Source: Rhynchopus sp. YZ270_cl-10
Lineage: Eukaryota > Euglenozoa > Diplonemea > Diplonemida > Diplonemidae
DNA: 64,000 nt
Assembly (NCBI GenBank): GCA_964035575.1
Contig: OZ037845.1
Location: 62,001-126,000 of the forward strand
Reading direction: 5' to 3'
Below the pieces are notes generated by a model. That model made no database searches. It was given only the letters and a program-made list of their open reading frames with translations, and had not been told where the DNA came from. The stretch's first letter is position 1, and each line of letters begins with the position of its first letter. Below, piece after piece: positions 13,477 to 47,454 of the stretch. Made by a program: the position numbers and the translations under genes.

Positions 13477-14857
13477 GAGAGGGGACCCTGGTGGGTTTGT
13501 TGCCCCGTTGACCAGCAGACGAGACAACGTCTGGCGTGTAACCTCCTAGTCGGCGCATCACCCGGGCTGCTCCACGGAGACAGTGGGTGGTGCGTGGTAC
13601 GGGGACGACAGTCCTCACCTAGCATCCGGAATTCCAGGTATGTCAACACACACTAGCAAAGGACACACAGGGGTGGCTGAGAGGTTGGTGTTTGGTAGTT
13701 GCCAATGGCGGCTTGCTGACGGGGACCTGGACCATCTCACTGGGTGACTGCTGTATCTGCATTGTGTGGTTTTTACTGCACGCTTGTGGCTGCTGTCAGG
13801 GCTATCTACGATGGGTGAGGCGCTTCTTCCGAACGTCTGCAGCGGCTGCGTTGGCCTTCGGGACTTCACGGATGCTGTCGGTACGCTCAGGAGATGTCGT
13901 CCTCCCTGGACCTTGGCTGGGTGTCTGCAGTGACGCACCGGGTGCGTCCACTGTTTGAATCCACAGGGGTGATCCACAGCCACAGAACTGGTCCGTCCAG
14001 GTCAGGGTGTGCCTCCCATGTAAAAGCCCCCATCAAAGACTTCTGTAGCCGCTCCTGTCCGCGTTGGAGTCTGGGTGACCGTTGCAACGGCCTCTAGGGA
14101 GAGAGAGGCCGGTGTAGTCAGGGACTACCCACATGGTGAGCACACTCGACGACTGCAAGCAACTGCACCGCTATTTGCTGCGGTGGTGCCTTTGTGAGCA
14201 GCACTCGTTCGATGTTGTGGCTCACATGTAACAGACTCCGACACTAGTGAGTGGTGACATAACCGCGACGGTTGGGATGTGAACAGGCTAGGCTGGTGAA
14301 TCTGTTAGGGAGTTGTGTCGGATGCATACTTGTGGGGAGTCACTCCCCTGCAGACAGGCGTGACCAACTTGCCGAGCAGAGGTCAGGTCGAGTAATCGGC
14401 TGGCTAACGGTCAAAGATCGCATTGGGTCGGCAGATTCATGCGGTTCAGACCGTCGGTTCCACCTCCGGGCGACTGGAGTGGTCAGCGCGAGCTGGCTGT
14501 GTCCCACCAGTGCGTGAAACCACAAACTGGGACGCATGGGATCGCTACAGACTGGGTCACCAGCCGGTCCTCTCAAGCAGAGGGCTCAATGTACAGTCGG
14601 GCCACAGTGAGTTACACACCCCGCGGACTTCGGAAGTTTCTGTGATACGGAAGAAGCCAACGGGTGGTAGTGAGCTGTGCTCTCGGTGGAAGGGCGTGTC
14701 TGAAAAGGACACAACCAGGAGACCGAGGGGCTGCTGGTCGGAAACACCCCAGGTATGTGTAAAAAGGGTGTAGGACGGCTAGCAGCGGAAAGGTCCTCAG
14801 CCTGACCTGCGCCTCCCCACTTCTTCTTCAGGGGAGGAGGGCAAAGGGGACAAGTGA
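13477..14857. other. GC-rich unrecognised stretch preceding retrotransposon copy A
   Basis: No convincing ORF or known RNA is seen. Composition changes sharply from the AT-rich left part. CAG|GTATGT occurs at 13638 and 14753, and a strong acceptor TTCTTCTTCAG at 14821-14831 would close a 79-bp intron in front of the retrotransposon frame. It could be the 5' untranslated region of a variant non-LTR element or host transcript sequence. Confidence 0.35.
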
Positions 14858-14937
14858 CCTGCAGCAGCACCGACAGCAACAGCAACAGCAGCAGCAGCAA
14901 CTGCAGCAACAACACTGTAGGTGGGGGTGAGCGAGGT

Positions 14938-17900: not shown

Positions 17901-19087
17901 TGGACAGAGCTGGCCTCCCCGTGTGCAGCCACACCACTGACTTGGCGGAGACTTGCTCAGCCTGTGAAGGAAAAGTGATGAGCGTGAAGTATGGAGGCTT
18001 TGCGTTCCTGGGGGCGCCAATCGGGGACGACGAGTACTGCGAAGCGTACATGGAGAAGAAGGTGGAGGAATTCGCGGTGCAACTGCGTCTGCTGCAGAAG
18101 GTGTCTGACTCGCAGGCTGGACTGACATTACTCCGTCAGTGCGAGGGGTTTGCACGCATGGTTTTCTACATGAGAGCCATTGGTCACGCGTGCACCCACA
18201 AGTACCTCAGCCAGTACGACAAGGAGGTAGACGCCGCCCTGGCCGCGCTTTTTGGTGATGAGGATGGAGGCCTGCCGGAAGAAGCACGGAGACAGGCCGC
18301 ACTGCCATGTAGGGTAGGGGGCATGGGCGTGCGCCGCATCCGCGACCACTGGACTGCAGCAGCCATGGGAGCAAGGAGCGGCCTGCACCAACTGTGCACC
18401 GAACTGGACCCCAGCTTCACCTGGGACGCCGAAGGATGGGAACGGACGGCAACGCTGTACAACGAGCAAGTGGCTGAAGGTGCTAGGATTGACCCCAAGC
18501 TGCAGCCAGCCGTCCCCCTGCGTCAACGTGATCTGTCTGCAGGGATCCTGGAGGAACAATTGCGGGACCTCTTCGTCAAGGGTGATGCGTACGACAAGGC
18601 GCGTCTCAATTCTCTGGCCCTCCCCCAAGCAGGGTCCTGGCTTACTGCACCCCCCACCTGGGAGCACTACATCCCTCCGATTGCATTCAAGGCCGCAGCC
18701 AGACTCCGCCTCCACCTCCCCATATACGCGGAGGGTGTCTCATGCAGGCAATGCAACCAGCCCATGGACACCAGGGGGGACCACATCTTCGCCTGCAGAA
18801 TGGGTGGGCATCGTATACTGCGACATAACTCAGTACGCGATTATGTGTATGGAGCAGCAAATGAGGCAGGTCTGAGCCCCATCCTGGAACCCAACCACCT
18901 CATCCTGGGCAACAACAAGCCCGCTGACATTCTGCTGTCCACAGGGGTCGGGGAGTCGAGAGGACGAGCTATCGATGTGACTGTGTGTGTGGACGCCGAC
19001 GTCAGCGTCGATGGTGCAGGGTGCCGCAGTCGCGAAGGGGTACGCGGCGACGAAGGCGGAAACTGCCAAGAGGAAGAAGCATGGTGA
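14938..19087 (+). pseudogene. Copy A ORF1: OTU / RT / endonuclease, frameshifted
   Basis: Same product as copy B ORF1 (OTU-like domain, zinc fingers, reverse transcriptase with IDYENAF, AQQGDP and YLDD, R2-type zinc knuckle and IDVTV endonuclease strand). An 11-bp deletion after CTTCGCAGA (16184) shifts the frame, so the first part ends at 16248 and the RT part is read in another frame to 19087. The missing bases are flanked by GA repeats, typical of slippage. The first frame has only a GTG at 14854; the first ATG is 14938. Without translation of the full N-terminus the copy is very likely inactive. Confidence 0.88.
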
Positions 19088-20096
19088 CGCGTGTGCGGCG
19101 GAGCGGCTGGCGTTCACACCCTTCGCCCTGGAGACCACAGGAGGTCTGGGACCCGCGGCGGCGTCGATATGGCAGCAGATGCTCCGTTTCGCAGCGGACA
19201 GGAAGCTTGGGAACAGAGTGGAGATGTCACAGAGGTGGAATTGGGGGCTAGGGACGACGCTGCAGCGACAGATCGGGAAGGCCGCGACGGATCGAGGGTC
19301 TCTGACTGGTTGCCTGAGGGGTCCTCTGCGAGAGCGTGTGGACTTAGATCCCACCGTCGACCCGGAAGAGGGGGACTTGATACGCTTGCCCCCCGACCAT
19401 CTACCTAACCTGGAAGTGACAGACGACCACCAGGGAGACATCAGGGTGAGTGCGGAGGAGGAGCCGGAGACAGGCAACGAGAAGGAAACGGCGCCAGAGA
19501 CAGCAGCACAGGACCCAACCCCCCACAGCGAACTGGAGGCCAACTTGGTGAAGTGGGGGCTGTCCCGACCGCAGGTGCCCGTGCCGTTCCGAGTAGGAGA
19601 CTGTGCGTTCGACGCAGTGTGCTGGTCAGTGCGGAGCTGGAAGGTGGTGACATCGTCGACCCTTCGGTCCCTGGCGGTGGAGAGAGTGAAGAGAGATGCT
19701 GACCTGGCGAGAAATGCGATGCCCGACCTCGCGACCTGGGTGCGATGGATGAGCCTGGCAGGGAACAGGGATCGCAGGTCGTGGGCGGACCAGACAGCAC
19801 TGGCGGGTCTGGCACGGGCTTTGCAGGTAGTCATTGTGGCGGTCGTGTCATCGGACTCTAAGGTGCACATCCATAGACCAGCCAGCAAGTCGAACGGGGC
19901 CGTAGCAGTGCTGCACACAGGAGCTCACGAGGCTGGCCACTTCTCGCCGTTATGCATGACAGACAACACGTTTGCATATCACCGGAGGTGGCGTACGAGG
20001 CGCTGGACGCGTGGTGGGATCAGCGGGAGGAGCTGGGGCGCGTCGGAGGACGGCAGACGAGTCAGTACGGGGCGCTTAGGGCGGTCCTGGTGCTGA
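18987..20096 (+). pseudogene. Copy A ORF2, truncated by an 802-bp deletion
   Basis: This frame overlaps the end of ORF1 and encodes the rest of the endonuclease region and the second OTU-like domain (RVGDCAFDAV ... AGHFSPL), as in copy B. After DNTFAY an 802-bp deletion, not a multiple of three, joins bases equivalent to 33486 and 34289 of copy B. The treble-clef zinc finger is lost and the last ~40 residues are out of frame. Confidence 0.85.
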
Positions 20097-20424
20097 TGAT
20101 GGAGGCGACCTTCAAATAGAAGGGCCTCGCGATTGGTTGTGATTGTGGTTTATGTGGGCACTGTTGCCCTTCCCTTCTCTGTTAGTTTCCCCCACCCCAA
20201 CTTTTGTGTGTAGCAACACCTGTTTAGTTCCCTGTTTCCTTTTTACCCCCAACCCCTCCCATTAGATACATGTGTGTAATCCCCCTGGTGTCAAGCCCCT
20301 TGTATGTAAATTCCAAATCTTCCCCCTCACAGAAAACGTCAGGAGTAAGCCAAGGAGGCGGTTTGTCTGTGGGCGTCGGCCTAGGAGTAAGCGACGGAGA
20401 TTTTTTCCCCCACCCCATCCCCTA
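20097..20424 (+). other. Copy A 3' untranslated region, first part
   Basis: Almost identical to 34405-34732 of copy B (for example one T/G difference in CTGTTAGTTTCCCCC). It ends at the TA target of the DNA transposon. Confidence 0.85.
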
Positions 20425-20450
20425 CACCATGGACTCGTAATGACATTACG
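20425..20450 (+). repeat. Left terminal inverted repeat of the DNA transposon
   Basis: 26 bp, exact reverse complement of 26578-26603. Confidence 0.95.
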
Positions 20451-20710
20451 TGACGAGGGACGAGGGAAATTACGTGGGAAATTACGCGCGCAATGACGTC
20501 GTCACGACGCGGGCACCCCCTCGTAATGACGACGTCATGACGTGGGGTTTTCCTCGTCACGACGACGGCATTACGACGTCATGACGAGGGGTGCCCTCGT
20601 AATTACGAGGGGACCCCTCGTAATTACGAGGGGTGCCCTCGTAATTACGAGGGGGTGCCCTCGTAATTACGAGGGGACCCCTCGTAATTACGAGGGGTGC
20701 TCCCGTGGTC
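20451..20710. repeat. Subterminal palindrome array, left end
   Basis: Five copies of the perfect palindrome CTCGTAATTACGAG separated by GGGGACCC or GGGTGCC, preceded by several GACGTC/TCATGACG palindromes. Likely transposase binding sites, by analogy with repeated subterminal motifs of plant-type transposons. Confidence 0.85.
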
Positions 20711-21386
20711 ATTGTCTGGCTATTGCCTCCCAGGGAAAGGGACTCTCGAATTTTTTTTTTTGCCCCTAGAAAGGGCTAATTTCGACGATTTGAGGCCATT
20801 AAAAGCAAAATTTGATGCTTTTGAGCATCTGTGGGGGTCTAAAACGCGTTTTTGCGGTTTTTTTTCCTCCTTCCCCCATATTTTTCTTTACCGACTACTT
20901 TGGCTCAGCATAAAAAAAATTTTAAATAAAGGTCGAGATTTAGGTAGTGGCCAAGTAAAAGAACACAATTTTTTAATGGACCATCTGGGGGTACACAAAT
21001 ACGCAGTTCTCCTCTCAAAAACCACGGATATTTTACGATATCCTGTGTCCATTATAATACCGTAATCGTAAGAATTCTGGGACGTAACAAATCTGGGACA
21101 ATTGGGAAAAAATCTGAAACTTGGGACATTTTTACGTCCCAGCTTTTTACGATTACGGTATACCATGCAAAAAAGATTGTCCCCCTCCTCCCCCCCCAGT
21201 AGAGAAAAGAAGAAGAAAAAGACAGTTTCTGAGATATGTCTCATCTGTTTTTGATTCATGGCCAATTCTGACCGAATTGCCCTCGGTACGGCGACATCAT
21301 CCTTTTCGGAAAGTTCTCACTCCGTACTGCTTGTCTTTGCGGCGGTATCCTTCTTCCTTTTGTTCTGTCGTAGTCAGTCGGCGTTC
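20711..21386. other. Transposon interior, no gene seen
   Basis: Contains an inverted pair around TACGATTACGGTAT / ATACCGTAATCGTA (21055-21165, with GGGACGTAA / TTTTACGTCCCAG flanks), a long imperfect hairpin. No coding potential is supported. Confidence 0.45.
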
Positions 21387-21531
21387 TTAGTTCCTTAGTT
21401 CCTTAGTTCCTTAGTTCCTTAGTTCCTTAGTTCCTTAGTTCCTTAGTTCCTTAGTTCCTTAGTTCCTTAGTTCCTTAGTTCCTTAGTTCCTTAGTTCCTT
21501 AGTTCCTTGGTTCCATAGTTCCTTAGTTTCT
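21387..21531. repeat. Minisatellite (TTAGTTCC)n, about 18 copies
   Basis: 8-bp unit with decay at the right end (TTGGTTCCATAG). It lies in the presumed promoter region 75 bases upstream of the 394-residue gene. Confidence 0.92.
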
Positions 21532-21604
21532 CAGTATTCTTTTTTGTGGTTGTTTACATTTAAACACACAACAGGATTACACAAAACCTCTCTCTCTTTC
21601 CACC

Positions 21605-22789
21605 ATGCCGAGAGTACCTAAGAAGAAGGCACCCAAGGCTCCGGCGAAGAACGGGCCGTCGACGCCTCTCCCTCAGTCCCCACCTGCGACCTCGCCCACC
21701 GATCAAGTGCCAGTTCCCGTCCTTCTCGCGACGCCACCCACCTCCAACCCTTCTTCCCAGACGAGCACCCCTGCGGGGAAAAAGTCGAGTGGTGATACTG
21801 GTACCCCCCTGCAGCGTGCTTTTTGTGAAATTTTTTTAATTCACCACGAGAAGAACACCCTCACCCTCCCCAAGCTCGCTGTTCTGTTCAACCGTTTGTT
21901 CGACAAAGTGTGCCAAGGGCCGCAGATGTCGAAGGCGGTGGCAGCGCGGTTCACGGACTGGCAGGGTCACCTCCAGCAACGTGAGGTGAACCAGCTCAGC
22001 GAGGCCAACAAGCAACTCCCGCGCGCTATTCGTGTGGGGGCAACGACATTCGTTAATGTCGGCTTGCGGGACACCCTTGCGTCGCTCGCCACTGGCCAGC
22101 ACACCAACGCTTTGCAAATCGTGCGCAGCGCTGCCGAAACGGCAGGAAAGTCCGAGGAGCTGCAGGGCCGGATGACGGTCTTGTATGACAAGACACACGG
22201 CGCATCGGCACCCAACACTGAACAGCCTGCATCTTGCAAACGGCCCCTCATCCCGTATCCTCCTCAGAGCGTTTGCGGGGCGAACATGAGGGACGGACAC
22301 CAGGTCTTTTCCGTTTTCTATCTAGTGGGGCCCAATGTCACTATTCAGGAGTGTTCGCTCTCCGGGTCAGAGGTGACACTCTCCATTCTGAGAAACTGCA
22401 AGTTCCAGGGGGAGCTGCAGAACGGAAAGTACCGTTTCTCTTACTGTGTCCCCCCTGACCACGCCATCGACCACACTCGTCTGCCCGAAGCGGCGCTTGA
22501 CGGAGCGATGCTCCTCGTGCATGTTCCCTTGATTTCCCTGGCCGCCCCCAAGCAGGCCATCCTCAGCACTACCGCGTTCGACTACAACGTGGTACTTCCC
22601 CCCGAAGCCGCCCCAACCGTGGCACCGGTGGTTCTGCATACGCCAGAGGGAGAGGGAGAGGGCGAACAGGACCCGGCCAATCAAGCGGATGAATCCGATG
22701 AAGAGGGTGAGGGTGCAGTACATGGTCAACTAGATGATCTTGGGTTCATGTCGATGTCAAGCTTTTCTGTGCAGGTTCAGAAACCCTAG
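21605..22789 (+). CDS. Unknown 394-residue protein of the DNA transposon
   Basis: ATG 21605 sits in the context CACCATGCC. The first ~75 residues are Lys/Pro/Thr/Ser-rich with PKKKAPKAP, which looks like a nuclear localisation tail. Residues ~80-200 are helical with many Gln/Glu/Arg; the remainder holds beta-like segments (VFSVFYLVGPNVTIQECSL, GKYRFSYCVPP) and ends in a Glu/Asp-rich tail. No known domain was recognised. Its position between the terminal repeats and in front of the transposase suggests an accessory protein of the transposon, perhaps a DNA-binding partner. It could instead be a captured host gene. Confidence 0.7.
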   Translation: MPRVPKKKAPKAPAKNGPSTPLPQSPPATSPTDQVPVPVLLATPPTSNPSSQTSTPAGKKSSGDTGTPLQRAFCEIFLIHHEKNTLTLPKLAVLFNRLFDKVCQGPQMSKAVAARFTDWQGHLQQREVNQLSEANKQLPRAIRVGATTFVNVGLRDTLASLATGQHTNALQIVRSAAETAGKSEELQGRMTVLYDKTHGASAPNTEQPASCKRPLIPYPPQSVCGANMRDGHQVFSVFYLVGPNVTIQECSLSGSEVTLSILRNCKFQGELQNGKYRFSYCVPPDHAIDHTRLPEAALDGAMLLVHVPLISLAAPKQAILSTTAFDYNVVLPPEAAPTVAPVVLHTPEGEGEGEQDPANQADESDEEGEGAVHGQLDDLGFMSMSSFSVQVQKP

Positions 22790-23058
22790 CCCGTGTCTAA
22801 GTTCTGCATCATTTCTATGGTGTTAAAATTCCCTGTTCAAGTCCCCTTTCTTAATTAATATGTCCTTTTTCTGTCACTTTGACAAGAGAAAAACGCTTTT
22901 TTGTCTTACCTTTACACACCGCAAAGTAAAAGAAGTCTTCCCAACTCCCTCGAGCTTTGATTATATTCCAAACTCCACTCACTCTCCTCTAACTCCCACA
23001 ACTGTTTGCAACACACACAGACCTGTGACACACGTTTTCATTTTTTTTTTTTTTTTAA
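22790..23058. other. Spacer between the two transposon genes
   Basis: Short AT-rich spacer ending in a T16 tract (about 23041-23056) directly before the transposase ATG. Confidence 0.5.
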
Positions 23059-24655
23059 ATGAAATGCAAGAGGGCAGACCCCGAGAGGCAGCGTGAGAAG
23101 CAGAGGGCCCGCACCCTTGGAGACGCGCTGCTCCGTGCGCGCTTACGCCACGGCCTCAGTCGCCACTGCATGGCAAAGCTTGCCCGCGCGATGCACGAGG
23201 CAAACCGCGCAAAGGGCCTCGCTCCTGTGCAGTTCGGTTTGTCTCGCAGCACGATCGCGAAGAGGGAGAGGCTCCTCCAGGCTCAGGCATGGAGGCTGCA
23301 GCAGAACGTGATGCAGGTCACGGCGTTTCTTCTTCGTCGCGTCCCTCGTGTCGCGTTCACCCCTCCGAGCAAGCTCGAGAAGTGGCCCATCACCTCCCTC
23401 CTCAGCATGGACGGCTACACCCCGCGGAACTCCTTGCGTACGAGAAATGCGCGCTTTCGGATGGCTGTGTGCCTACAAGCCGGAGCCTACGGCACCAGCC
23501 CCCTCACCATCATCGATGTCCCGAAGTCGGCGTTCAAGGGCATTGACCTGGGCACGCTTCTCGCTGCATCGCAGCAGACGGTGTACCGTCTGGAGCAAGA
23601 CGGGGGTATTGTGTTCCGGATCCCTATTAATAGGGTCGGTGGGGATCACGCGGAGCTCTGGGTGTTGTTCAAGGGGATGGGAGGAAGGGGTCACAGGAGT
23701 GCATTTTGCTGTACCCGCAGCGAGGATTGGCTCTCCACTTTGCACTCGTGCAAGCGCTGTTCGATTCAAGAGCTCAGCGCACACTTCCATTGCCCCCTCG
23801 CAGCCCACCTCCACACTCCTGCGTACACGGTGACCCCCCCCCCTCCACGACATCAAGGGCATCATCACCATGCTCCTTCATGTCCACTCGGGAGGACCAT
23901 CCGCCATAAAGGATGTCCTCGGGGTGGATTCGTTACAGAACGTGACCACCTCTCTGTGCCGAACAATGTTGGCGCAGCTGCTTGAGGCAGAAGCACCCAC
24001 CGACCCAGAGAGACTTGCTTGCGTGGCAGTTGAGTGCCTGGTCGCCTTTCGGTACCAGGATATCCCCATTCGATACCACGTATCCGGCACCAACGGTCAT
24101 GAGTTCGTGGCCAGTCTCCTTGCGTACCACGTCCTCATATTCGTGTTTGAGTGGTGGTTGCCTGGGTCGACCTGGCACAAAGGTGGTACGTACTTTCATA
24201 GTGCGAATCACTGGTTCGACGTGGAGGATTGCCAACTTTTTAGTCAATCCGATGAAGCGTTCGAGAGGGAGAACGGAGAGCGGAAGCGTCGTGCGTGCGT
24301 GGTCGGTCCCGCCACTTACGAGCGCGACCAGCTCATGTTTGAGATTGCGAACCTGCCCAATAGAGGATTGAGTGTGCTGCCTATGGAGCGTGAGTGCATT
24401 GCGTGGGGATACGACTCTTTCGCTCCTTTCTGCCGTTCGTGTGTCTGCAAGGGTGATTGGGGGAAGCGGCTGACGGCACTGCGTTCCAGACTGGTTTCCT
24501 TCGGCTTCTCACACTCGAGCGCGAGAGATGACGACTTTTGTTATCTTGGCTCTGATCTCCGGCAACGCAGAAACAAGTCCATGCGCGTTTGTGTTTGTGA
24601 CGCGACCAAGGTGAAGTTTGACGCCAAGGTTAAGAAGGCGTTTAATTTGAAATAA
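23059..24655 (+). pseudogene. Transposase-like gene with a C-run frameshift
   Basis: Frame 1 from ATG 23059 encodes an Arg-rich start, a helix-turn-helix-like segment and then strands carrying candidate catalytic Asp residues: SMDGYTP and GGDHAELWVLFKGMGG followed by CC and CKRC. At a run of ten C's (23834-23843) the sensible frame moves by one base: frame 1 becomes PRHQGHHHH, while the shifted frame reads PPLHDIKGIITMLLHVH and stays open to 24655, with E-rich helices (HEFVASLLAYHVLIFVFEWW) that could supply the third acidic residue. The GGD...C and LHDIKG signatures resemble DDE-type transposases with an inserted Cys/His motif. One extra C explains the break. The stop TAA lies inside an AATAAA polyadenylation signal. 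Family unassigned. Confidence 0.68.
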
Positions 24656-26130
24656 AAGAGATAAATACTTGTGTGCCTCGTATGCGAGGAGAGGTCTCTT
24701 CCGAGCCCATTGTCGCACCCTTTGACCCCGTTACACCAGATTACACCCCATTACACCTGAATTTCCTCGTGGCCAGTACACCCATTATCGAGTCATGGTT
24801 TCAGTTCCCGTAATTTTGCTCTTTTTTTAAATTTTTTCAATTAAAAAATGTCGTCACGAAGATAAAATTTTTTGTACCTTCTGTGCCTGCGTCCCTGAGG
24901 CGTTTGCACTATCAACTTCACCTTTTTTTTTTTTTTGTAAATCAAGCTACTTGACAATGGACATAGAAACGACGGAGGGTGCGTGCCCGCCAGCTTCACT
25001 CATTGTTCTTTCTTCATAGTTCAGCAACAAAAGAATGGGGTAATATTTCTTGTTTTTTTCTGTTCCTTTTTCCACCACACCTCCAAAAACACCCTCACAG
25101 GATGACAGTATACAAAAACATGATAAACGATGAAAACCCGCAACTCTACGCCACAGGTTCTTTCTTCCTCTGGGAAACTCTTTGTCAGTCACTGCTATAG
25201 CCATTTAACCCAGGGAGCATAGCTAGTGCAAGAAATTCGACTTCGGGATCCGGAAAGTCTGTCCTCTGCTCTTGCGGAGGACTAGGCACAAGAAAATATT
25301 GCGTTCCCCCAGGAAACTAATTTTTGTCACAGTAATTTTTGCCCAGGGCATGCTCTTGAAGCATGGCGGCTTGGTGTGAGAAGGGGCAGTGTGTTGTTTT
25401 GTTCTAGATTTCAACGGTTGTTAGAACGAGTCAAGTGGATGCTTATCTAAACACTGACTTTAGTACAGACCCGAGAGATCACACATGACTTTGAGGAAAG
25501 AACAAAGCAATGCATCTGTACCCGCACGCCAGGTTGTAGTTACTTCAGAATTTTCTTAAGTTTGCGCGAAAGAGAGCGGGGGCAACTCCTTTGTATCATA
25601 AGCCCGCTGTGCAGAACAAAGCGAGGAACCTTAAAACACTACCTGCGTGGTGGCTGAATTCACATCCCTTAGAATTACCAGAATTCAGCCTTTGTTGAAG
25701 TAACGTACATACTTGTATGTGCGTGTCACGCTTCTCCATCCTTAAATGGGTGCACTGCTTCACTGCAGCGGGTAAGCCTCTCTCGACTAGTGCAAACTTA
25801 AGAATTTTCTGCTGTAACTTACCAAAATCGATTTTCTTTCACCCCAAACACCCGCAACACCCCACCTGCTACTTCGGTAGCCTGTGTTGTTGGGAGTTGG
25901 TTCTCATGTTGATCCCCAGTGTTTTGCACTGCTTCTTCTGAGCCCAACGCTGTTTGGCCTGTCGACGTAATAAATACGAAGACAGGGCGGCGGTGCCAAC
26001 AATTTTCCGATGATGTAACGTTTTATCTGATTGATTTATCGTTTGATATACCTTGTGTGTGCTACTTCATGCACACCCAAGCAAGGTATATTGAACGGTA
26101 CTTTCAAGCGATACTTCGTTATGTCATTGG
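24656..26130. other. Transposon 3' interior, no gene seen
   Basis: About 1.5 kb without a supported ORF. Near 24731-24760 there are two near-identical ATTACACC words. Short minus-strand frames at 24947-25204 and 25223-25414 show no recognisable protein. Confidence 0.45.
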
Positions 26131-26438
26131 GGGTACCTGGGTACCTGGGTACCTGGGTACCTGGGTACCTGGGTACCTGGGTACCTGGGTACCTGGGTAC
26201 CTGGGTACCTGGGTACCTGGGTACCTGGGTACCTGGGTACCTGGGTACCTGGGTACCTGGGTACCTGGGTACCTGGGTACCTGGGTACCTGGGTACCTGG
26301 GTACCTGGGTACCTGGGTACCTGGGTACCTGGGTACCTGGGTACCTGGGTACCTGGGTACCTGGGTACCTGGGTACCTGGGTACCTGGGTACCTGGGTAC
26401 CTGGGTACCTGGGTACCTGGGTACCTGGGTACCTGGGT
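26131..26438. repeat. Minisatellite (GGGTACCT)n, about 38 copies
   Basis: Virtually perfect 8-bp unit containing the palindrome GGTACC. Open in all six frames; not coding. Confidence 0.95.
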
Positions 26439-26577
26439 GCCCACGTCATGACGACGTCATGACGAGGTAATTACGAGGGGGTGCCCTCGTAATTACCTCG
26501 TCATGACGAGGGCACCCCCTCGTAATTACGAGGGGGTGCCCTCGTCAAGGCACTCGTAATTACCTCGTCATGACGCG
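26439..26577. repeat. Subterminal palindrome array, right end
   Basis: CTCGTAATTACGAG and half-site variants (GAGGTAATTACGAG, CTCGTAATTACCTCG) mirror the left-end array in inverted orientation. Confidence 0.8.
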
Positions 26578-26603
26578 CGTAATGTCATTACGAGTCCATG
26601 GTG
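26578..26603 (-). repeat. Right terminal inverted repeat of the DNA transposon
   Basis: 26 bp, exact reverse complement of 20425-20450, followed by the TA duplication. Confidence 0.95.
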
Positions 26604-27121
26604 TACGAGTTCCATGGGGGGTCGCTACTGGCGTTAATCATCCAAACAAAAAAGACTACAAGAGACAAAACAAAAGTAACAAGAAAGGAACTTCGTATTG
26701 TAAAAAGAAAGCCCCATCCCGCCCCTTCCTCCCCTCCAGAACCAGCTGGGCACCAATACTGGAAATACAGCAAAACCACACAGACTGGACAGTCTATATT
26801 CTCCCCTGCCTCTCCCGTGTTAATGTTCACCCCTCCTTTATCCCAAATTGTCATAGAGCTAAATATAGTTGTATGCCTCGCTTCGCTCGGCAAACAACGA
26901 TACATAATAGGGCGACATGCTGATGACAAATATCTCCCTCGTTTAATTCACTTTTGTGCCTCGTTCTAACTAAACCGGCACATGTACTGATTGTAAGACT
27001 TTTGGCCCTCACTTCGCTCGGACCAAGCGCCTTTCATGTGCATTATAAACGTACCCCCCTTGCCCTGTCCAGTTTGATGTGGAACAAAAAAAGTCGAGCC
27101 TAGGGCTAAGTTGAACAACAC

Positions 27122-27169
<48 letters not shown>
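26604..27169 (+). mobile_element. Copy A 3' end with poly(A)
   Basis: Matches 34731-35292 of copy B nearly base for base and ends in A47 (27123-27169). Two CTTCGCTCGG hairpin-like motifs occur near 26876 and 27013. The last bases before the A-run are CTAGGGCTAAGTTGAACAAC then ACC, shared with family 2. Confidence 0.92.
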
Positions 27170-27170
<1 letters not shown>

Positions 27171-27343
27171 GGGGCACACACGTTTTGCTACACACTACCC
27201 CATCTTGTCCTTTGCTTCTCCCCTTATCCCCTTTCCCCCACTTGTTTTCCCCCTTGTGTGGGTCCTACCTGTCGCCTCCTAGTGGCGTGTCCTGGGCAGA
27301 GAGAAGGCCGTTGAGTAGTTCCTCTCTGGCGAAGTGCAGGTAG
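27171..27343 (+). ncRNA. HDV-like self-cleaving ribozyme at the element's 5' end
   Basis: All parts of the nested double pseudoknot can be placed. P1: GGGGCAC (27171-27177) with GTGTCCT (27287-27293). P2: CTACCTG (27265-27271) with CAGGTAG (27337-27343). P3: GCC/GGC (27274-27276, 27284-27286) closed by TCCTAGT, very like the HDV loop. J1/4 is GGGCA. P4 is AGAGAG/CTCTCT (27298-27303, 27322-27327). J4/2 is GGCGAA (27328-27333), identical to HDV, with the catalytic C at 27330. Cleavage would fall just before G27171, exactly at the junction with the preceding poly(A). R2-type elements are known to use such ribozymes to free their 5' end. The joint between P1 and P2 is unusually long (87 bases). 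Confidence 0.82.
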
Positions 27344-27415
27344 AGACGTGTATTTTGTCTTCCTTGTCCTTTTGTTTTTTACTGTTTTGACTTTTTTGTT
27401 TTCTTGGTGGTGAAG

Positions 27416-30400
27416 ATGTGCAGGTGGAGTGCCCAGCTTTGGGCTATGGTGCTCCTGTGTGGAGCCATGGATGATGGCGGGGGTGACAGCCGAAGCTGGT
27501 GCAGCAACATGAGCAACATGCGCAGCAGCAGCAGCATGAGCAGGAGCAGCATGAGCAGCAGCATGAGCAGCAGCAGCATGTGCAGCAGCAGCATGAGCAG
27601 CAGCAGCATGAGCAGCAGCATCGTGAGCAGGAGCACTGCCATCAACATCAGTACCTCCCACGGTTGCGGCAGGCACGTATCGCGAGTGGGCTCCTCAACA
27701 CCAACTCAGCACTCTCAGGTACCACGTTCTCGCTGCAGCAACATGAGCAGCCATGACTGGAGTGATGGCCTCTATGGCAGCGTCTACTGCAACAATAGCG
27801 GCTCCAACAACCACACCAGCAACATCTACACCTGCAGCAATGGCCGCAAGGGCTTCATGTGCAGCGGCTACAGAAGCTGCAGGTGCACCCCCATTCCCCC
27901 CCATTATTACCCCAAAAAGAGGCCTGTGCCCAACAACCCAAGCGGCTGCAGCTTTGATAGCAGCAACAACAACAACAACTACAACAACGGTGGCAGACAC
28001 TGGATGCGTGGGCGGACACTAGATGTGCGGGCGGACAGCATCAGCAGCAACAACAGCAACTACAACAACAGTGGCAGACAGTGGATGCGCGGGCGGACAC
28101 TAGATGTGCGGGCGGGCAGCATCAGCAGCAACAACAACAACAACTACAACAACAGTGGCAGACAGTGGATGCGCGGGTGGACACTAGATGTGCGGGCGGA
28201 CAGCATCAGCAGCAACAACAGCAACTACAACAACGGTGGCAGACAGCGGATGCGCGGGCGGACACAGGATGTGCGGGCGGACAGTATCAGCAGCAACAAC
28301 AGCAACTACAACAACAACCGTAACACCAGCAACAACAACAGCATCAGCAGCACCTGCAGCAGCACCGACAGCAACAGCAACAGCAGCAGCAGCAACTGCA
28401 GCAACAACACTGTAGGTGGGGGTGAGCGAGGTATGCTGGTGTTCGGGGCCAGCCTTGCGGGGCGAGAAGGACAGAGTTACTGTGTGACGTTACGGGTGTG
28501 GGGGACCTTTATCACCCCCAATGTTCACATGGGGCGTGCAGAACATGGGCTTGGGTTTGACTGGTGGAGCATCCTTTGGGAACGCCTTTCTTCTCTGCGC
28601 CGACCAGACCCCCGCTGGGTAGCCGAGGCACCTGAGTGGGGTGTGTTTGTGTCTTTCGCGGTCCTGGACATGTGGAAGGACAGACGCGCCCCTACCCTCA
28701 GTCACCTCATATTGTGGCTGGTGGGTAGGAGGGGGACCAGGAGGACGCGCCGAGGTCACAGGTCCTTGAACTGGACCAAGGCACAGGCGAGCAGGTTCCG
28801 TCGGCGCAAGGCGCCATGCAAGCGTCCGCCCTCTCAACTTTTCCGCAGGATAAGGGCAGCCGTTGTGAGAGTGGCTTTGCAGTGGGTGGCCATCTGGGCT
28901 CTGGTTTGCGTGGGGTATGAGCTTGGGAGATCGGCGCCACGGGCTTTGGGTTGTGCACTGATCCGGGACGCAGAGCTGCTGAGTGTGCTGCTGAGGAAGG
29001 GGCTCCTACAGGGCCGATACAGAGCACGTAGCGGGAGGCTGTGGTTGCGAGTACTTGCCAGCAGGGTGTGGGTTTTCATGCAGAGGTTGAGGCGACCGGC
29101 GGGGACAGGGGACGGGTGGGAGCTGTCACCTCAGAGCATAAGCCTGGGGCCCGGGGCGCTGGCAGGTGGAGCAGACGGGGACATCAACCCGGAGGAGGCG
29201 GCAAACCTTGACGCATTCCTCGAGGTGCATGGGGGGAAGAGGGTGCCGAACGCAGCCAACGGCGAGTGCATGTACGTGGCCTTACTGGGTAAGAAGAACG
29301 CGCTGTACTTGGATGTCAGCAAAGCACGCACTGAGCTGGCTGACAGAGCGCGGGTCACGAAGGTGAAGACCGGTCTCAGACGCTACTTCGAGACCGAGGC
29401 ACAGCTGTCAAGCTTCATTGACGGCCTCACCAACCCTGAGGTGTGGGGCAACCACCTCACCCTACACCTGGCAGCAAATGCATGGTCCACCACGATAGCG
29501 GTAGTGCAGCCTGGGCCGAATCCAGTGGTGACGATCAACCCCGCAGCCTCATCGAAAGACTTGCGGACGCAGAAAGACCGCCGCGTCAGGGTAGTTTCAC
29601 TCCTCAATAATCACTATGAGGAAGTGCAAATGGACCCAAAGAACGCCCTGGCAATGGTCCAGTCGGCCCCCTTCGCAGAGCTTGACCCGAAAGGCCTAAC
29701 AGCAACACCCATCCCTGCCATGACGAAGGAGTCGCCTTCTCCTCTGGGGGCTGATGCACCGAGGCTCTTCTGCCCTGTTCCGTGTTGCAACGGAAGCAGT
29801 CTACACCGTCCCCAGCCCTTCTCTGTTCCCGGCCTGCGCACACACATCGGTGCACACCTGTCTTCCGGCGACCACATCCCCCACGACACCCTCAACAAGT
29901 TGGGGTTAGGACAGTGTGAAGCGTGTGGGGGGATACGGTCGGCATCGAAGGAGACATGTCTTCAGTGTGCGAAACTGGTAAAGGCGATCGCAAAGCCCAC
30001 ACCCAGGGAACGCACCGCAGTGGAAAAGGCAGACGACGTTGACTTGCCGGAGTGGTGGGAGATAGCTCAAATCCCCATCAGGACAACAGATGCGATCCCC
30101 ACGAGCATCGACCGTCCAGCCGCTGTGGAGTTCACCCAGGCACTTGAGGATGTGGCCGCAGTTGGCGATGAGGCAAGCTGGAAACGTTTGTGCATGTTCG
30201 CGAAGCTGGTCCTACCGGCGAAGCGAGGTGGGAAGCACCTCAAGACGAAGGTGGCAGTCTTGCGGCAGAAGGATGTGGATGAGTGGAGAGAAGGTGAGAT
30301 CGCAGCAATGTGGCGAGCAGCTGCGAATCGCACAGGCGGTACGAAGAAGGAGAAGGAGCGGAAGGAACCAACGTGGGAAGAAAGGGAGAAGGCGATGGTC

Positions 30401-32593
30401 CGGGAGGTGCGGAATGGGAGGATGGCAGCAGGGATGAGCCGCCTCCACAAGGGTGGGCTGGCAGAGCGTACTGAGGAATCCACAGACATCCTCCGCAGAA
30501 AGCACCCCCATGAGGAACCCCAACCTGCCACTTCTCTGCCGGAAATTGCTTCCGAGCCGCTGAAGCCGATCGCCGCCCTCAAAGCCATAAATAGCATGGC
30601 AAAGGGCTCTGCTCCAGGTCCCTTTGGTCTGCGCGGGGATCACCTCAAGGGGTGGATGGTCAAACACCCGGACCTGAACATCTTGCCACTGATGACGCAA
30701 GTCCTGGACCTGCTGCGACGCGGGAAAGCCCCCTCCGAGACAGCTATGTTCATGGCAGGAGCTACTCTGGTGGCGTTAAAGAAGGGTGACCAAGGCGACG
30801 TCCGCCCCATCTCTGCAGGCAACACACTTCGGCGAGTCGTGAGCAAGATCGAGGTGGCGTCTGTGAGGGAAAAGGCACGAGGAGTGCTGCTGCCAGGGAG
30901 ACAAGTTGGGGTGGCGGTGGACGGTGGACTGGAAGCGGCGACAATGGTTGTGGCAGCATACGCAAAACGACACCAGGGGAGCGACAAAGTGATCGTACAG
31001 ATTGACTACGAGAACGCATTCAACAGCATCTTTCGCAAGACTTTTCTGGAAGCCACAAGGAAATATCTCCCGTCCATTTCACCGTGGGTCGAATGGTGCT
31101 ACAACTCCCACACCGGGCTAGTGTATGGTGACGAGATGATCCCATCCACCAGAGGCGCGCAGCAAGGCGACCCCGCAGGGCCCCTACTCTTCTCCCTGGG
31201 GATCAAAGCACTGACAGACGAAGTGCGTGCAGTCCAGGGCATCGACTGTAGCATCTGGTACCTCGATGATGGGACGATCATGGGGAACCCAGAGGCGGTG
31301 GCTCGAGCGCTGGAGTTAGTGAGGACACGCAGTGCGGAGCTGGGGCTGAAGGTGAAGCTGTCAAAGTGTGAAGTCATCGCCCTAGGACAGCAGACTCCGT
31401 TGGACCTGGACAGAGCTGGCCTCCCCGTGTGCAGCCACACCACTGACTTGGCGGAGACTTGCTCAGCCTGTGAAGGAAAAGTGATGAGCGTGAAGTATGG
31501 AGGCTTTGCGTTCCTGGGGGCGCCAATCGGGGACGACGAGTACTGCGAAGCGTACATGGAGAAGAAGGTGGAGGAATTCGCGGTGCAACTGCGTCTGCTG
31601 CAGAAGGTGTCTGACTCGCAGGCTGGACTGACATTACTCCGTCAGTGCGAGGGGTTTGCACGCATGGTTTTCTACATGAGAGCCATTGGTCACGCGTGCA
31701 CCCACAAGTACCTCAGCCAGTACGACAAGGAGGTAGACGCCGCCCTGGCCGCGCTTTTTGGTGATGAGGATGGAGGCCTGCCGGAAGAAGCACGGAGACA
31801 GGCCGCACTGCCATGTAGGGTAGGGGGCATGGGCGTGCGCCGCATCCGCGACCACTGGACTGCAGCAGCCATGGGAGCAAGGAGCGGCCTGCACCAACTG
31901 TGCACCGAACTGGACCCCAGCTTCACCTGGGACGCCGAAGGATGGGAACGGACGGCAACGCTGTACAACGAGCAAGTGGCTGAAGGTGCTAGGATTGACC
32001 CCAAGCTGCAGCCAGCCGTCCCCCTGCGTCAACGTGATCTGTCTGCAGGGATCCTGGAGGAACAATTGCGGGACCTCTTCGTCAAGGGTGATGCGTACGA
32101 CAAGGCGCGTCTCAATTCTCTGGCCCTCCCCCAAGCAGGGTCCTGGCTTACTGCACCCCCCACCTGGGAGCACTACATCCCTCCGATTGCATTCAAGGCC
32201 GCAGCCAGACTCCGCCTCCACCTCCCCATATACGCGGAGGGTGTCTCATGCAGGCAATGCAACCAGCCCATGGACACCAGGGGGGACCACATCTTCGCCT
32301 GCAGAATGGGTGGGCATCGTATACTGCGACATAACTCAGTACGCGATTATGTGTATGGAGCAGCAAATGAGGCAGGTCTGAGCCCCATCCTGGAACCCAA
32401 CCACCTCATCCTGGGCAACAACAAGCCCGCTGACATTCTGCTGTCCACAGGGGTCGGGGAGTCGAGAGGACGAGCTATCGATGTGACTGTGTGTGTGGAC
32501 GCCGACGTCAGCGTCGATGGTGCAGGGTGCCGCAGTCGCGAAGGGGTACGCGGCGACGAAGGCGGAAACTGCCAAGAGGAAGAAGCATGGTGA
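27416..32593 (+). CDS. Copy B ORF1: OTU-like, zinc-finger, RT, endonuclease
   Basis: First ATG after the ribozyme; 1,725 residues. A Ser/Asn/Cys-rich, CAG-encoded N-terminus is followed by a conserved module GERGMLVFGASL...RRAPTLSHLILWLVG with hydrophobic segments; an OTU-like protease domain (NGEC618MYVAL ... NNHYEEV); a C2H2-like finger (C786...H) and CxxC pair; a basic helical region; reverse transcriptase with motif A IDYENAF (D1197), motif B AQQGDPAGPLLF and motif C YLDD (D1284/D1285); an R2-type knuckle C1612-x2-C1615...GDHIFAC...RHN; and the start of the restriction-like endonuclease (PADILL, AID1689VTV). This is the machinery of target-primed reverse transcription in the nucleus. The frame stops before the conserved rest of the endonuclease, which continues in ORF2 one base ahead. 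The OTU assignment rests on Cys/His motifs only. Confidence 0.9.
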   Translation: MCRWSAQLWAMVLLCGAMDDGGGDSRSWCSNMSNMRSSSSMSRSSMSSSMSSSSMCSSSMSSSSMSSSIVSRSTAINISTSHGCGRHVSRVGSSTPTQHSQVPRSRCSNMSSHDWSDGLYGSVYCNNSGSNNHTSNIYTCSNGRKGFMCSGYRSCRCTPIPPHYYPKKRPVPNNPSGCSFDSSNNNNNYNNGGRHWMRGRTLDVRADSISSNNSNYNNSGRQWMRGRTLDVRAGSISSNNNNNYNNSGRQWMRGWTLDVRADSISSNNSNYNNGGRQRMRGRTQDVRADSISSNNSNYNNNRNTSNNNSISSTCSSTDSNSNSSSSNCSNNTVGGGERGMLVFGASLAGREGQSYCVTLRVWGTFITPNVHMGRAEHGLGFDWWSILWERLSSLRRPDPRWVAEAPEWGVFVSFAVLDMWKDRRAPTLSHLILWLVGRRGTRRTRRGHRSLNWTKAQASRFRRRKAPCKRPPSQLFRRIRAAVVRVALQWVAIWALVCVGYELGRSAPRALGCALIRDAELLSVLLRKGLLQGRYRARSGRLWLRVLASRVWVFMQRLRRPAGTGDGWELSPQSISLGPGALAGGADGDINPEEAANLDAFLEVHGGKRVPNAANGECMYVALLGKKNALYLDVSKARTELADRARVTKVKTGLRRYFETEAQLSSFIDGLTNPEVWGNHLTLHLAANAWSTTIAVVQPGPNPVVTINPAASSKDLRTQKDRRVRVVSLLNNHYEEVQMDPKNALAMVQSAPFAELDPKGLTATPIPAMTKESPSPLGADAPRLFCPVPCCNGSSLHRPQPFSVPGLRTHIGAHLSSGDHIPHDTLNKLGLGQCEACGGIRSASKETCLQCAKLVKAIAKPTPRERTAVEKADDVDLPEWWEIAQIPIRTTDAIPTSIDRPAAVEFTQALEDVAAVGDEASWKRLCMFAKLVLPAKRGGKHLKTKVAVLRQKDVDEWREGEIAAMWRAAANRTGGTKKEKERKEPTWEEREKAMVREVRNGRMAAGMSRLHKGGLAERTEESTDILRRKHPHEEPQPATSLPEIASEPLKPIAALKAINSMAKGSAPGPFGLRGDHLKGWMVKHPDLNILPLMTQVLDLLRRGKAPSETAMFMAGATLVALKKGDQGDVRPISAGNTLRRVVSKIEVASVREKARGVLLPGRQVGVAVDGGLEAATMVVAAYAKRHQGSDKVIVQIDYENAFNSIFRKTFLEATRKYLPSISPWVEWCYNSHTGLVYGDEMIPSTRGAQQGDPAGPLLFSLGIKALTDEVRAVQGIDCSIWYLDDGTIMGNPEAVARALELVRTRSAELGLKVKLSKCEVIALGQQTPLDLDRAGLPVCSHTTDLAETCSACEGKVMSVKYGGFAFLGAPIGDDEYCEAYMEKKVEEFAVQLRLLQKVSDSQAGLTLLRQCEGFARMVFYMRAIGHACTHKYLSQYDKEVDAALAALFGDEDGGLPEEARRQAALPCRVGGMGVRRIRDHWTAAAMGARSGLHQLCTELDPSFTWDAEGWERTATLYNEQVAEGARIDPKLQPAVPLRQRDLSAGILEEQLRDLFVKGDAYDKARLNSLALPQAGSWLTAPPTWEHYIPPIAFKAAARLRLHLPIYAEGVSCRQCNQPMDTRGDHIFACRMGGHRILRHNSVRDYVYGAANEAGLSPILEPNHLILGNNKPADILLSTGVGESRGRAIDVTVCVDADVSVDGAGCRSREGVRGDEGGNCQEEEAW

Positions 32594-34427
32594 CGCGTGT
32601 GCGGCGGAGCGGCTGGCGTTCACACCCTTCGCCCTGGAGACCACAGGAGGTCTGGGACCCGCGGCGGCGTCGATATGGCAGCAGATGCTCCGTTTCGCAG
32701 CGGACAGGAAGCTTGGGAACAGAGTGGAGATGTCACAGAGGTGGAATTGGGGGCTAGGGACGACGCTGCAGCGACAGATCGGGAAGGCCGCGACGGATCG
32801 AGGGTCTCTGACTGGTTGCCTGAGGGGTCCTCTGCGAGAGCGTGTGGACTTAGATCCCACCGTCGACCCGGAAGAGGGGGACTTGATACGCTTGCCCCCC
32901 GACCATCTACCTAACCTGGAAGTGACAGACGACCACCAGGGAGACATCAGGGTGAGTGCGGAGGAGGAGCCAGAGACAGGCAACGAGAAGGAAACGGCGC
33001 CAGAGACAGCAGCACAGGACCCAACCCCCCACAGCGAACTGGAGGCCAACTTGGTGAAGTGGGGGCTGTCCCGACCGCAGGTGCCCGTGCCGTTCCGAGT
33101 AGGAGACTGTGCGTTCGACGCAGTGTGCTGGTCAGTGCGGAGCTGGAAGGTGGTGACATCGTCGACCCTTCGGTCCCTGGCGGTGGAGAGAGTGAAGAGA
33201 GATGCTGACCTGGCGAGAAATGCGATGCCCGACCTCGCGACCTGGGTGCGATGGATGAGCCTGGCAGGGAACAGGGATCGCAGGTCGTGGGCGGACCAGA
33301 CAGCACTGGCGGGTCTGGCACGGGCTTTGCAGGTAGTCATTGTGGCGGTCGTGTCATCGGACTCTAAGGTGCACATCCATAGACCAGCCAGCAAGTCGAA
33401 CGGGGCCGTAGCAGTGCTGCACACAGGAGCTCACGAGGCTGGCCACTTCTCGCCGTTATGCATGACAGACAACACGTTTGCATATCTGCGAAGCCTTGCC
33501 CCCGACACCCCCCTTCCAGAGATGCAGTGCCACAGCACCGGAGCGCTGTCACGGATGGAGGAGCGCCCGGGGAGACAGGGGGAATTGCTCACGTGCGAAA
33601 ACTGCGCACTCATCACCGAATGTAGTGTCCCCCACTGGTTTTGTAGTTCCTGCGAGCGCACATGGTGTGAGGGATGTGGGAGCGCCAACGCAAAGTGTGT
33701 GCTGAGGGCAAAGCCAGTTCAGCCAGTTCAGCCAGTTCAGCCGACAACATCGCAGACAGTGGGAGGTAGCTACTACAACAGCAACCCAGCTCCCCCACAG
33801 GACGCGGCAACGGAGGTGAAGGAGGAGGTTATGGATGAGGAGGATTCCGCCGACTGCGCCGACCACGACACCACCATGGACAACAACACCGCAACCGCAG
33901 CAGAATCCTTCGTCTGGGGGCCATCAGAGCAGAGCTACAACACCACACCAACAGCTCTGACTGGTGACCACCACTTGGGTTCAGCGAAGACTGGTGGATG
34001 GACGGCTAAGTCCCACGCGGAAAGAAGGACGAAGCTGACCACCCTTGGGACTTCGCGGCGGGCGCAGGGGAACCACACTCGTCGCTCCGGTGTAGTGGAG
34101 GACAGGTCTGCGGAGACCACAGCAAGGCGGCCTTCTCCCCCTATCTCGCGAGGGTCGGATGTGGAGGCGAAAGGGTTAGTCCCACACAGCCAGAAGGAAG
34201 GGGACAGGGTGCCGAGAAATGTCGAAGAGTGGGCGGACTGCTTCTTCCCCAGGGGAGGGACCAGGCGAGAGGGAATGACTCCCTTGGCACCGGAGGTGGC
34301 GTACGAGGCGCTGGACGCGTGGTGGGATCAGCGGGAGGAGCTGGGGCGCGTCGGAGGACGGCAGACGAGTCAGTACGGGGCGCTTAGGGCGGTCCTGGTG
34401 CTGATGATGGAGGCGACCTTCAAATAG
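32493..34427 (+). CDS. Copy B ORF2: endonuclease C-part, second OTU-like domain, zinc finger
   Basis: Open from 32487; GTG 32493, first ATG 32517; stop 34427. The first ~80 residues (AKRKKHGDACAAERLAFTPF, ETTGG) match what follows the endonuclease strand in family 2 (KREKHERDLNKINTKFSPIV, EAFGG), where one frame covers both. Then comes a second OTU-like domain: RVGDCAFDAV, WADQTALAGLARAL, a beta strand VVIVAVVS and AGHFSPL. Next is a treble-clef-like zinc finger CENC...CSSC...CEGC (about 33595-33685) and a charged, low-complexity tail. ORF2 overlaps ORF1 by about 100 bases in the +1 frame, around a (GT)4 tract. It is expressed either by +1 (or -2) frameshifting, by re-initiation, or not at all. 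Confidence 0.85.
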   Translation: MWTPTSASMVQGAAVAKGYAATKAETAKRKKHGDACAAERLAFTPFALETTGGLGPAAASIWQQMLRFAADRKLGNRVEMSQRWNWGLGTTLQRQIGKAATDRGSLTGCLRGPLRERVDLDPTVDPEEGDLIRLPPDHLPNLEVTDDHQGDIRVSAEEEPETGNEKETAPETAAQDPTPHSELEANLVKWGLSRPQVPVPFRVGDCAFDAVCWSVRSWKVVTSSTLRSLAVERVKRDADLARNAMPDLATWVRWMSLAGNRDRRSWADQTALAGLARALQVVIVAVVSSDSKVHIHRPASKSNGAVAVLHTGAHEAGHFSPLCMTDNTFAYLRSLAPDTPLPEMQCHSTGALSRMEERPGRQGELLTCENCALITECSVPHWFCSSCERTWCEGCGSANAKCVLRAKPVQPVQPVQPTTSQTVGGSYYNSNPAPPQDAATEVKEEVMDEEDSADCADHDTTMDNNTATAAESFVWGPSEQSYNTTPTALTGDHHLGSAKTGGWTAKSHAERRTKLTTLGTSRRAQGNHTRRSGVVEDRSAETTARRPSPPISRGSDVEAKGLVPHSQKEGDRVPRNVEEWADCFFPRGGTRREGMTPLAPEVAYEALDAWWDQREELGRVGGRQTSQYGALRAVLVLMMEATFK

Positions 34428-35249
34428 AAGGGCCTCGCGATTGGTTGTGATTGTGGTTTATGTGGGCACTGTTGCCCTTCCCTTCTCTGTTATTTTCCCC
34501 CACCCCAACTTTTGTGTGTAGCAACACCTGTTTAGTTCCCTGTTTCCTTTTTACCCCCAACCCCTCCCATTAGATACATGTGTGTAATCCCCCTGGTGTC
34601 AAGCCCCTTGTATGTAAATTCCAAATCTTCCCCCTCACAGAAAACGTCAGGAGTAAGCCAAGGAGGCGGTTTGTCTGTGGGCGTCGGCCTAGGAGTAAGC
34701 GACGGAGATTTTTTCCCCCACCCCATCCCCTACGAGTTCCATGGGGGGTCGCTACTGGCGTTAATCATCCAAACAAAAAAGACTACAAGAGACAAAACAA
34801 AAGTAACAAGAAAGGAACTTCGTATTGTAAAAAGAAAGCCCCATCCCGCCCCTTCCTCCCCTCCAGAACCAGCTGGGCACCAATACTGGAAATACAGCAA
34901 AACCACACAGACTGGACAGTCTATATTCACCCCTGCCTCTCCCGTGTTAATGTTCACCCCTCCTTTATCCCAAATTGTCATAGAGCTAAATATAGTTGTA
35001 TGCCTCGCTTCGCTCGGCAAACAACGATACATAATAGGGCGACATGCTGATGACAAATATCTCCCTCGTTTAATTCACTTTTGTGCCTCGTTCTAACTAA
35101 ACCGGCACATGTACTGATTGTAAGACTTTTGGCCCTCGCTTCGCTCGGACCAAGCGCCTTTCATGTGCATTATAAACGTACCCCCCTTGCCCTGTCCAGT
35201 TTGATGTGGAACAAAAAAAAGTCGAGCCTAGGGCTAAGTTGAACAACAC

Positions 35250-35292
<43 letters not shown>
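34428..35292 (+). other. Copy B 3' untranslated region and poly(A)
   Basis: It carries C-rich stretches, two CTTCGCTCGG hairpin-like motifs (near 35003 and 35139), then CTAGGGCTAAGTTGAACAAC, ACC and A42 (35251-35292). The terminal ~25 bases also end family 2 copy D, so they are a candidate recognition site for the shared reverse-transcription machinery. Confidence 0.88.
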
Positions 35293-47439: not shown

Positions 47440-47454
47440 CATCCTGTGAGTAGG

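Follow-up and report, generated by a model that had tools for sequence, protein, structure and literature searches.

The 5' end of a non-LTR retrotransposon in the diplonemid Rhynchopus sp. YZ270_cl-10 is most likely formed by an HDV-like self-cleaving ribozyme, at whose predicted cut most of the family A copies read begin. The site lies in a 64-kb window (the whole stretch of DNA analysed, C13:62001-126000) of a genome of 152 Mb in 126 contigs; positions below are those of the window, and the parts of the element lie on its plus strand. Judged from sequence comparisons, positions 27171-27343 very probably encode a working HDV-like ribozyme, rightly placed where the element begins. With it, the range of 5'-end HDV-like ribozymes comes to include a retrotransposon that bears an OTU domain and an R2-like reverse transcriptase (RT), in a protist that uses spliced leaders. 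The genome also seems to record two routes to an RNA 5' end, self-cleavage and trans-splicing, at one base, and makes accessible the question of how such elements obtain a capped mRNA for translation as well as a template that is full-length and free of the leader.

The element spans about 8.1 kb (27171-35250) and is followed by a poly(A) tail of 42 A (35251-35292), the last element base being 35250. The main open reading frame (27416-32593) is open stop-to-stop from 27344, with its first ATG at 27416; the rest of the coding region is found in another frame (32487-34427). These form a single frame in the intact copy L080, compared with which the window copy has lost the frame near the end of its main ORF. 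An OTU-like cysteine protease domain (29255-29617; PF02338) scores 22.3 bits in the window, against a cut-off of 23.3, and 29.7 bits in L080; a second OTU-like stretch in the downstream coding region (approximately 33100-33500; GDCAFDAV...H, by eye) is absent from the Pfam output. The RT domain, RVT_1 (30779-31498; PF00078, 66.6 bits), has as its best PDB match the R2 retrotransposon protein 9nl2 (E = 1.4e-6), with LINE-1 proteins next. Further downstream, a block (C-x2-C...H...C and RHN...KPA; 32243-32458) resembles the R2 endonuclease region; the sole PDB match of the C-terminal part of L080, a weak one, is 8ibw, "Reverse transcriptase-like protein" (E = 0.28), which we take to be silkmoth R2. 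Pfam up to E = 1 gives OTU and RVT_1 for the intact protein of 2,339 aa, and no apurinic endonuclease or RNase H. The element is a non-LTR retrotransposon with an RT, an OTU domain, and a region whose likeness to the R2 endonuclease has weak support. The original prediction had referred to R2-type retrotransposons: the RT fits this label and the endonuclease region fits it weakly, but no R2 target was seen in the flanks examined, and neither the 20 of 49 loci tested nor the window gave an Rfam gathering match. Stop-free open frames of 2,340-2,359 aa occur at 22 of the 31 protein matches listed (best 27 of 1,220 candidates scored), and that of L080 was confirmed by direct reading. With open frames at these 22 near-identical places, the family is young, and its elements look recently active. 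No relatives were found in viral contigs.

The predicted first base after cleavage, G27171, is also the 5' end of the element. It opens the 5' strand of P1 (GGGGCAC, 27171-27177), which covaries with the 3' strand at 27287-27293 (GTGTCCT). Between them lie J1/2 (27178-27264; 87 nt, 78% pyrimidine), the 5' strand of P2 (CTACCTGT, 27265-27272), and P3 (GCC, 27274-27276, paired with GGC, 27284-27286), which is closed by the L3 loop TCCTAGT (27277-27283). Downstream of P1 are the GGG of J1/4 (27294-27296), a candidate P1.1 partner of the CC in L3 by eye, then P4 (CAGAGAG, 27297-27303, and CTCTCTG, 27322-27328), J4/2 (GGCGAA, 27328-27333) with the candidate catalytic C27330, and the 3' strand of P2 (GCAGGTAG, 27336-27343). 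The HDV double pseudoknot can thus be traced through P1, P2, P3, P4, and the L3 and J4/2 core motifs, with P1.1 assigned by eye, and the helices named in the original prediction are present. That prediction placed the cut at the base right after the upstream poly(A); G27171 stands as the base, but C27170 intervenes between it and the 47-A tract (27123-27169). This tract is the tail of another copy, whose end, ...GTTGAACAACACC(A)n, matches the 3' end of the window element. Lying directly upstream and head to tail (14857-27122), this second family A copy lacks its 5' part and, as repeat spacings indicate, contains about 6.2 kb of other sequence. The 87-base joint had been considered unusually long. 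However, R2 ribozymes typically have a P1 of 6-7 bp whose strands are 23 to over 700 nt apart (PMC3774820), a range that includes the 109 nt found here.

Copies related to the window element (family A) were collected with a pattern combining L3, the 3' strand of P1, and J1/4, which gave 49 places in the genome and none in the reversed control. A looser pattern also requiring J4/2 gave 47 places, by eye all family A, and two in the control, and the 40 best of 68 candidates scored in a DNA search of the genome all fall within the 49. Family sizes are lower bounds (40 of 167, 40 of 68, and 27 of 1,220 candidates scored in the several searches), and some rows are probably duplicates (L096/L097, L110/L111, L020/L021, L025/L026, L038/L039/L042); by a rough key, the 49 family A copies form 42 junction groups. 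The shared sequence begins at G27171 (GGGGCACACACG) in 44 of the 49 copies, while the flanks differ. Nine of these 44 have one or two extra G in front, three have the host's spliced leader in front, and one (L035) has a partly duplicated 5' end. The five remaining copies are shortened at the 5' end (L043, L044) or represent one altered variant (L045-L047). An A-run of at least 8 lies within 120 nt upstream of all 49 starts, at a distance of 0-7 nt in 36 copies and more in 13; within 60 nt, an A-run is found in 47 of 48 copies of family A, and for the sister family described below the figure is 1 of 33. Copies are concentrated toward contig ends (28 of 46 within 50 kb vs 3.2 expected, with C8, C10, and the window's C13 copy left out). 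The element's end motif is present in 14 of 20 fetched 3' ends. Template jumping may be the source of the poly(A) ahead of family A; 3' flanks are mostly unlike 5' flanks, although in one copy (L035/L073) each side has (A)nGGTGTGG.

Elements of this kind often carry an internal promoter from which transcription begins at their first base, and transcription initiated at G27171 could set the 5' end, leaving the HDV-like fold as a leftover or with another role. L1Tc of Trypanosoma cruzi provides a precedent, in which promoter and HDV-like ribozyme share the same 77 nt (PMC4748587). Yet a promoter leaves unexplained both the two-sided changes in P1 and P2 pairs and the coincidence of the start with the sole P1 solution, and the leader-fused copies suggest an acceptor upstream of G1 in some source RNA; this explanation is considered improbable.

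The presence of a ribozyme agrees with the way in which the core is conserved. Three copies of a second subfamily (L051, L052, L054) match the window at every base of P1 (7/7) and of the core (81/81). J1/2 is 77 nt long there and has 69/77 identities plus 10 gaps, and the next 125 bases have 90/112 identities and 14 gaps. In the repeat-rich coding start (element positions 301-1300), identity falls to 502/931 with 92 gaps, about 54%, in L051 and L054, and to 452/856 in L052. The original prediction that the ribozyme marks the exact 5' end of the element is supported by this retention of the core amid diverging surroundings, together with the common start. Within family A, 37 of the 49 cores are identical to that of the window and seven more have one base changed, in L4, so that the J4/2 C is present in these 44; an insertion lies immediately upstream of the core in L045-L047, and in L082 and L086 the downstream sequence is changed or breaks off ahead of the J4/2 C. 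Since the 49 were selected by L3, P1', and J1/4, variation or decay can be revealed only by the rest of the core. Some of this conservation may be due to gene conversion.

A relaxed pattern gave 75 matches (reversed control, 23), comprising 47 of family A, 22 that are probably chance, and six places with a second type of core, whose coding start looks homologous, by eye, to that of the window element. These six led to a sister family, D/E, for which the best 40 of 167 candidates were scored in a DNA search. Of 41 loci read, 39 have the core, one being a repeat of another (L128 of L119), and two lack it (L098, L101); the minus-strand copy C59:96152 was left out. P1 is complete in 33 of the 39 cores and incomplete in L090, L091, L094, L096, L097, and L099. 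The D/E core differs from that of family A in lacking the outermost P2 pair, in a short P4 (by eye), and in its L3 variants (TCCTCGG, TCCACGG, TCCTAGG); J1/2 is 75-91 nt, excluding L091, where P1 is a spurious pick. J1/4 is GGG in 38 of 39 cores (CGG in L094), and the J4/2 C corresponding to C27330 is conserved throughout, the motif G[GA]CGAA being present in 39/39 (GACGAA in L096/L097).

A comparative signal comes from double changes between the families. P1 is GGGGACC/GGTCCCT in D/E vs GGGGCAC/GTGTCCT in the window, and both sides have changed in two pairs of P1 (positions 5 and 6) and three of P2 (positions 2, 3, and 5). These five compensated pairs (11 distinct rows, among them L091, whose P1 is missing and represented by a spurious pick) compare with a mean of 1.1 in shuffled controls, one of 500 of which reaches the observed number, and with 0-1 in slid structures; all five stem from a single contrast, A versus D. 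Paired cells amount to 89.1% vs 46-51% in slid structures, a percentage that favours the structure, as segments were cut to fit, and the double changes carry more weight. Segment alignment was used instead of plain MAFFT, which misaligned P1 and P2 between the families. By its own terms, the original prediction would have been contradicted by copies that start at other places and lack compensatory changes in P1/P2; the 44 starts at G27171 in family A and the five compensated pairs in the sister family both fall on its side.

A loose descriptor was composed after the site had been seen (P1 of 7 bp starting with G, P2 of at least 6 bp, P3 of 3 bp, P4 of at least 3 bp, the L3 and J4/2 motifs, and J1/2 of at most 150 nt). 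It has one match on both strands of the 64-kb window, the ribozyme site, with a single P1 solution at 27171; a first-order Markov control gave one loose match per 40 windows' worth of sequence and none with strict L3. No Rfam model reached its gathering score in the window. The original prediction had named the HDV covariance models (RF00094) as a check, and this search did not call the ribozyme at the gathering score of 50 bits: the site has 14.9 bits (E 9.6 and 2.8), a chance-level result exceeded in bits by four other, presumably chance, matches. RF00094 at E 10 gave nothing in the whole genome (best 86 of 4,540 candidates scored). The Rfam models miss the true P1 because the long J1/2 puts it beyond the aligned match. 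For the D/E copy L088, the best Rfam match is the HDV ribozyme RF02682 (26.5 bits, E = 0.0028; gathering score 44 bits), and RF00094 ranks second when matches are ordered by bits (17.2) and third when ordered by E-value (2.1); neither model reaches its gathering score. A pseudoknot-free fold of the 176-nt stretch contains no ribozyme and is no better than shuffles (z = +1.2), whereas the minimum-energy fold of the core alone contains P2, P3, and P4 and lies about one standard deviation below shuffles. The missing Rfam gathering match and the shuffle-like fold of the whole stretch are what would be expected if the structure were a chance or decayed one in an old repeat. Against this stand the unique descriptor match, the conserved core, the common 5' end, the covariation, the RF02682 match of L088, and the open frames at the 22 near-identical places, which indicate a young family; such an origin is extremely unlikely.

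The host has a spliced leader of the euglenozoan type (AACCAACGATTTCTAAAGCTACAGTTTCTGTACTTCATTG followed by GTATGG, with its 5' end assumed), which is arrayed in the genome; a U6 gene lies inside one of the arrays, and the leader's 21-nt tail occurs 733 times. The leader is presumably most like those of diplonemids, and a prokinetoplastid stretch resembling it was also seen. Within the stretches searched, the leader tail is found in six copies of the retrotransposon, four of family A (L014, L018, L019, L043) and two of D/E (L127, L129), and in none of the reversed controls. In five of the six, located in C67, C72, and C79 (A) and C6 and C10 (D/E), the leader abuts the run of G at the predicted cut, as TTCATT/GGGG in L014, L019, L127, and L129 and as TTCATTG/GGGG in L018 (slash, join); in L043 it is joined at position 12-13, where no AG acceptor is known. 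The matched length, of 39 nt, is 35 in L014, 25 in L018, 15 in L019, 39 in L043, 39 in L127, and 38 in L129, the outermost matched leader A in the A copies possibly being part of the A-run. A search up to 30 nt from the ORF start gave no leader. These copies are most simply read as products of trans-splicing followed by retrotransposition, the acceptor AG consisting of G1 and the preceding base, or lying one G further on. Since G is also the last base of the leader, the join restores GGGG and with it P1. A join at the predicted cut thus leaves P1 intact, and the splice acceptor and the ribozyme site overlap. Elsewhere in the genome, the lone leader copy L077, without a GT donor, is joined to a possible gene start and is perhaps a processed retrogene with its leader.

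The 5' ends of the sister family vary more than those of family A. For the 41 D/E loci, 33 starts were scored (including three duplicate rows), three loci reach the edge of the stretch, three have no P1, and two have no core; 19 starts coincide with G1 or precede it by no more than 3 matching nt, 12 lie at TTTACA, 6-7 nt upstream, and two at 5 and 10 nt. Many D/E 5' ends (L088, L103-L121, and others) consist of a unit of 17-18 nt, TTTTTTACA/GGGGACCA, repeated in tandem; there are 1 to at least 16 units, and where the counts are highest the array runs to the limit of the sequence read. Each unit carries a P1 strand and poly(T)-ACAG/G, which resembles a 3' splice site. These units, and the leader joined at the G-run in five copies, could be taken to mean that the 5' end is itself a spliced-leader acceptor, with trans-splicing at A/G1 and later loss of the leader, during integration, in the copies that lack it. 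However, 41 of the 44 A copies starting at G1 have no leader there. Three of the six leader copies retain 38-39 of 39 nt, which shows that copying can run on through the leader, and an acceptor leaves the conservation and covariation of the core unexplained. The probability that trans-splicing alone sets the 5' end is therefore slight.

With the ribozyme as the preferred source of the 5' end, the following order of events may be proposed. RNA of the element would be made within a longer transcript and cut by the ribozyme before G27171, and reverse transcription of the cut RNA would yield new copies beginning at that base. The A before G1 would double as a trans-splice acceptor, through which some RNA gains the host leader; the last G of the leader would restore GGGG and leave P1 intact, and the ribozyme could in principle remove the leader again. 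The original prediction envisaged an element co-transcribed with upstream sequence and cut free. We likewise infer co-transcription, but the genomic record suggests a more complicated case, because six copies bear the host leader, which in five lies at the predicted cut. One tentative extension, for which the odds are rather against than in favour, is that ribozyme and trans-splicing share one site so that a leader-bearing capped mRNA is cut back to a leaderless template, the D/E tandem units serving as spare cut or splice sites; if true, this would be a ribozyme that undoes trans-splicing.

HDV-like ribozymes are known from several non-LTR retrotransposons, including the clades R4, L1, and RTE in addition to R2 (PMC3774820). 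Like R2, the present element combines a 5'-end ribozyme and an R2-like RT with a 7-bp P1, distant P1 strands, a cut at or near the 5' junction (in R2, at the junction or up to 36 nt upstream), and few extra bases at 5' junctions (PMC3774820). Unlike R2, it has upstream A-runs rather than 28S rDNA, an OTU domain, and a host that uses spliced leaders. R4/Dong and RTE, as they are described, likewise have an HDV-like ribozyme with its cut at the element's 5' end (PMC3774820). Closer in setting are L1Tc, NARTc, and ingi, non-LTR elements of trans-splicing hosts whose Pr77 is a 5'-end HDV-like ribozyme; in contrast to the present element, they carry an apurinic endonuclease and RNase H (PMC4035085, PMC4748587, PMC12278014), and J1/2 is long here compared with Pr77. 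Pr77-derived transcripts of L1Tc are described without a spliced leader (PMC4748587), whereas leader-fused copies exist here. CRE, SLACS, and CZAR of trypanosomatids resemble the element in having an RT and poly(A), and they carry a restriction-like endonuclease, of which the element has a weakly supported candidate region; but they insert into spliced-leader genes, and the passages on them in PMC12278014 name no ribozyme; in the present element, the leader is instead found at the copy's 5' end. By eye, a leader gene forms the upstream flank in 0 of 49 A copies, and the D/E copy L121 adjoins leader-gene sequence: its upstream flank (TTTGTCAAAACATGGCCGG) is similar to the intronic portion of such a gene (cf. 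L079), and L121 may sit in one. Among the open-licence papers listed in literature searches, titles and abstract openings show neither an HDV-like ribozyme in a diplonemid retrotransposon nor a ribozyme site overlapping a spliced-leader acceptor, which is not proof of absence; the lineage and the acceptor overlap look new.

Several other features of the window may be recorded. By eye, a second ribozyme seemed possible near 13490-13640; it was dismissed, since neither the descriptor nor a core covariance model detects it. Arrays of the TTTGCGGG type lie at 13380-13480 and 8796-9108, as well as at L048:1-900, and contig C3 begins with at least 900 bases of such an array, with the G-rich strand at its left end, unlike the usual telomere orientation. 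An open frame of 1,941 aa at positions 1902-7727 is of the Helitron Rep/PIF1 helicase type. For a minus-strand element at 47440-48500, no clear 5' boundary emerged from a genome search, and that strand of the window has no descriptor match. Also on the minus strand, an open frame of 2,644 aa (49012-56946) has no Pfam match at E 0.001. At 46638-47500 there is a long perfect 13-bp satellite (GCATCCTTGCACA), and similar repeats lie beside some D/E insertions (L104, L116).
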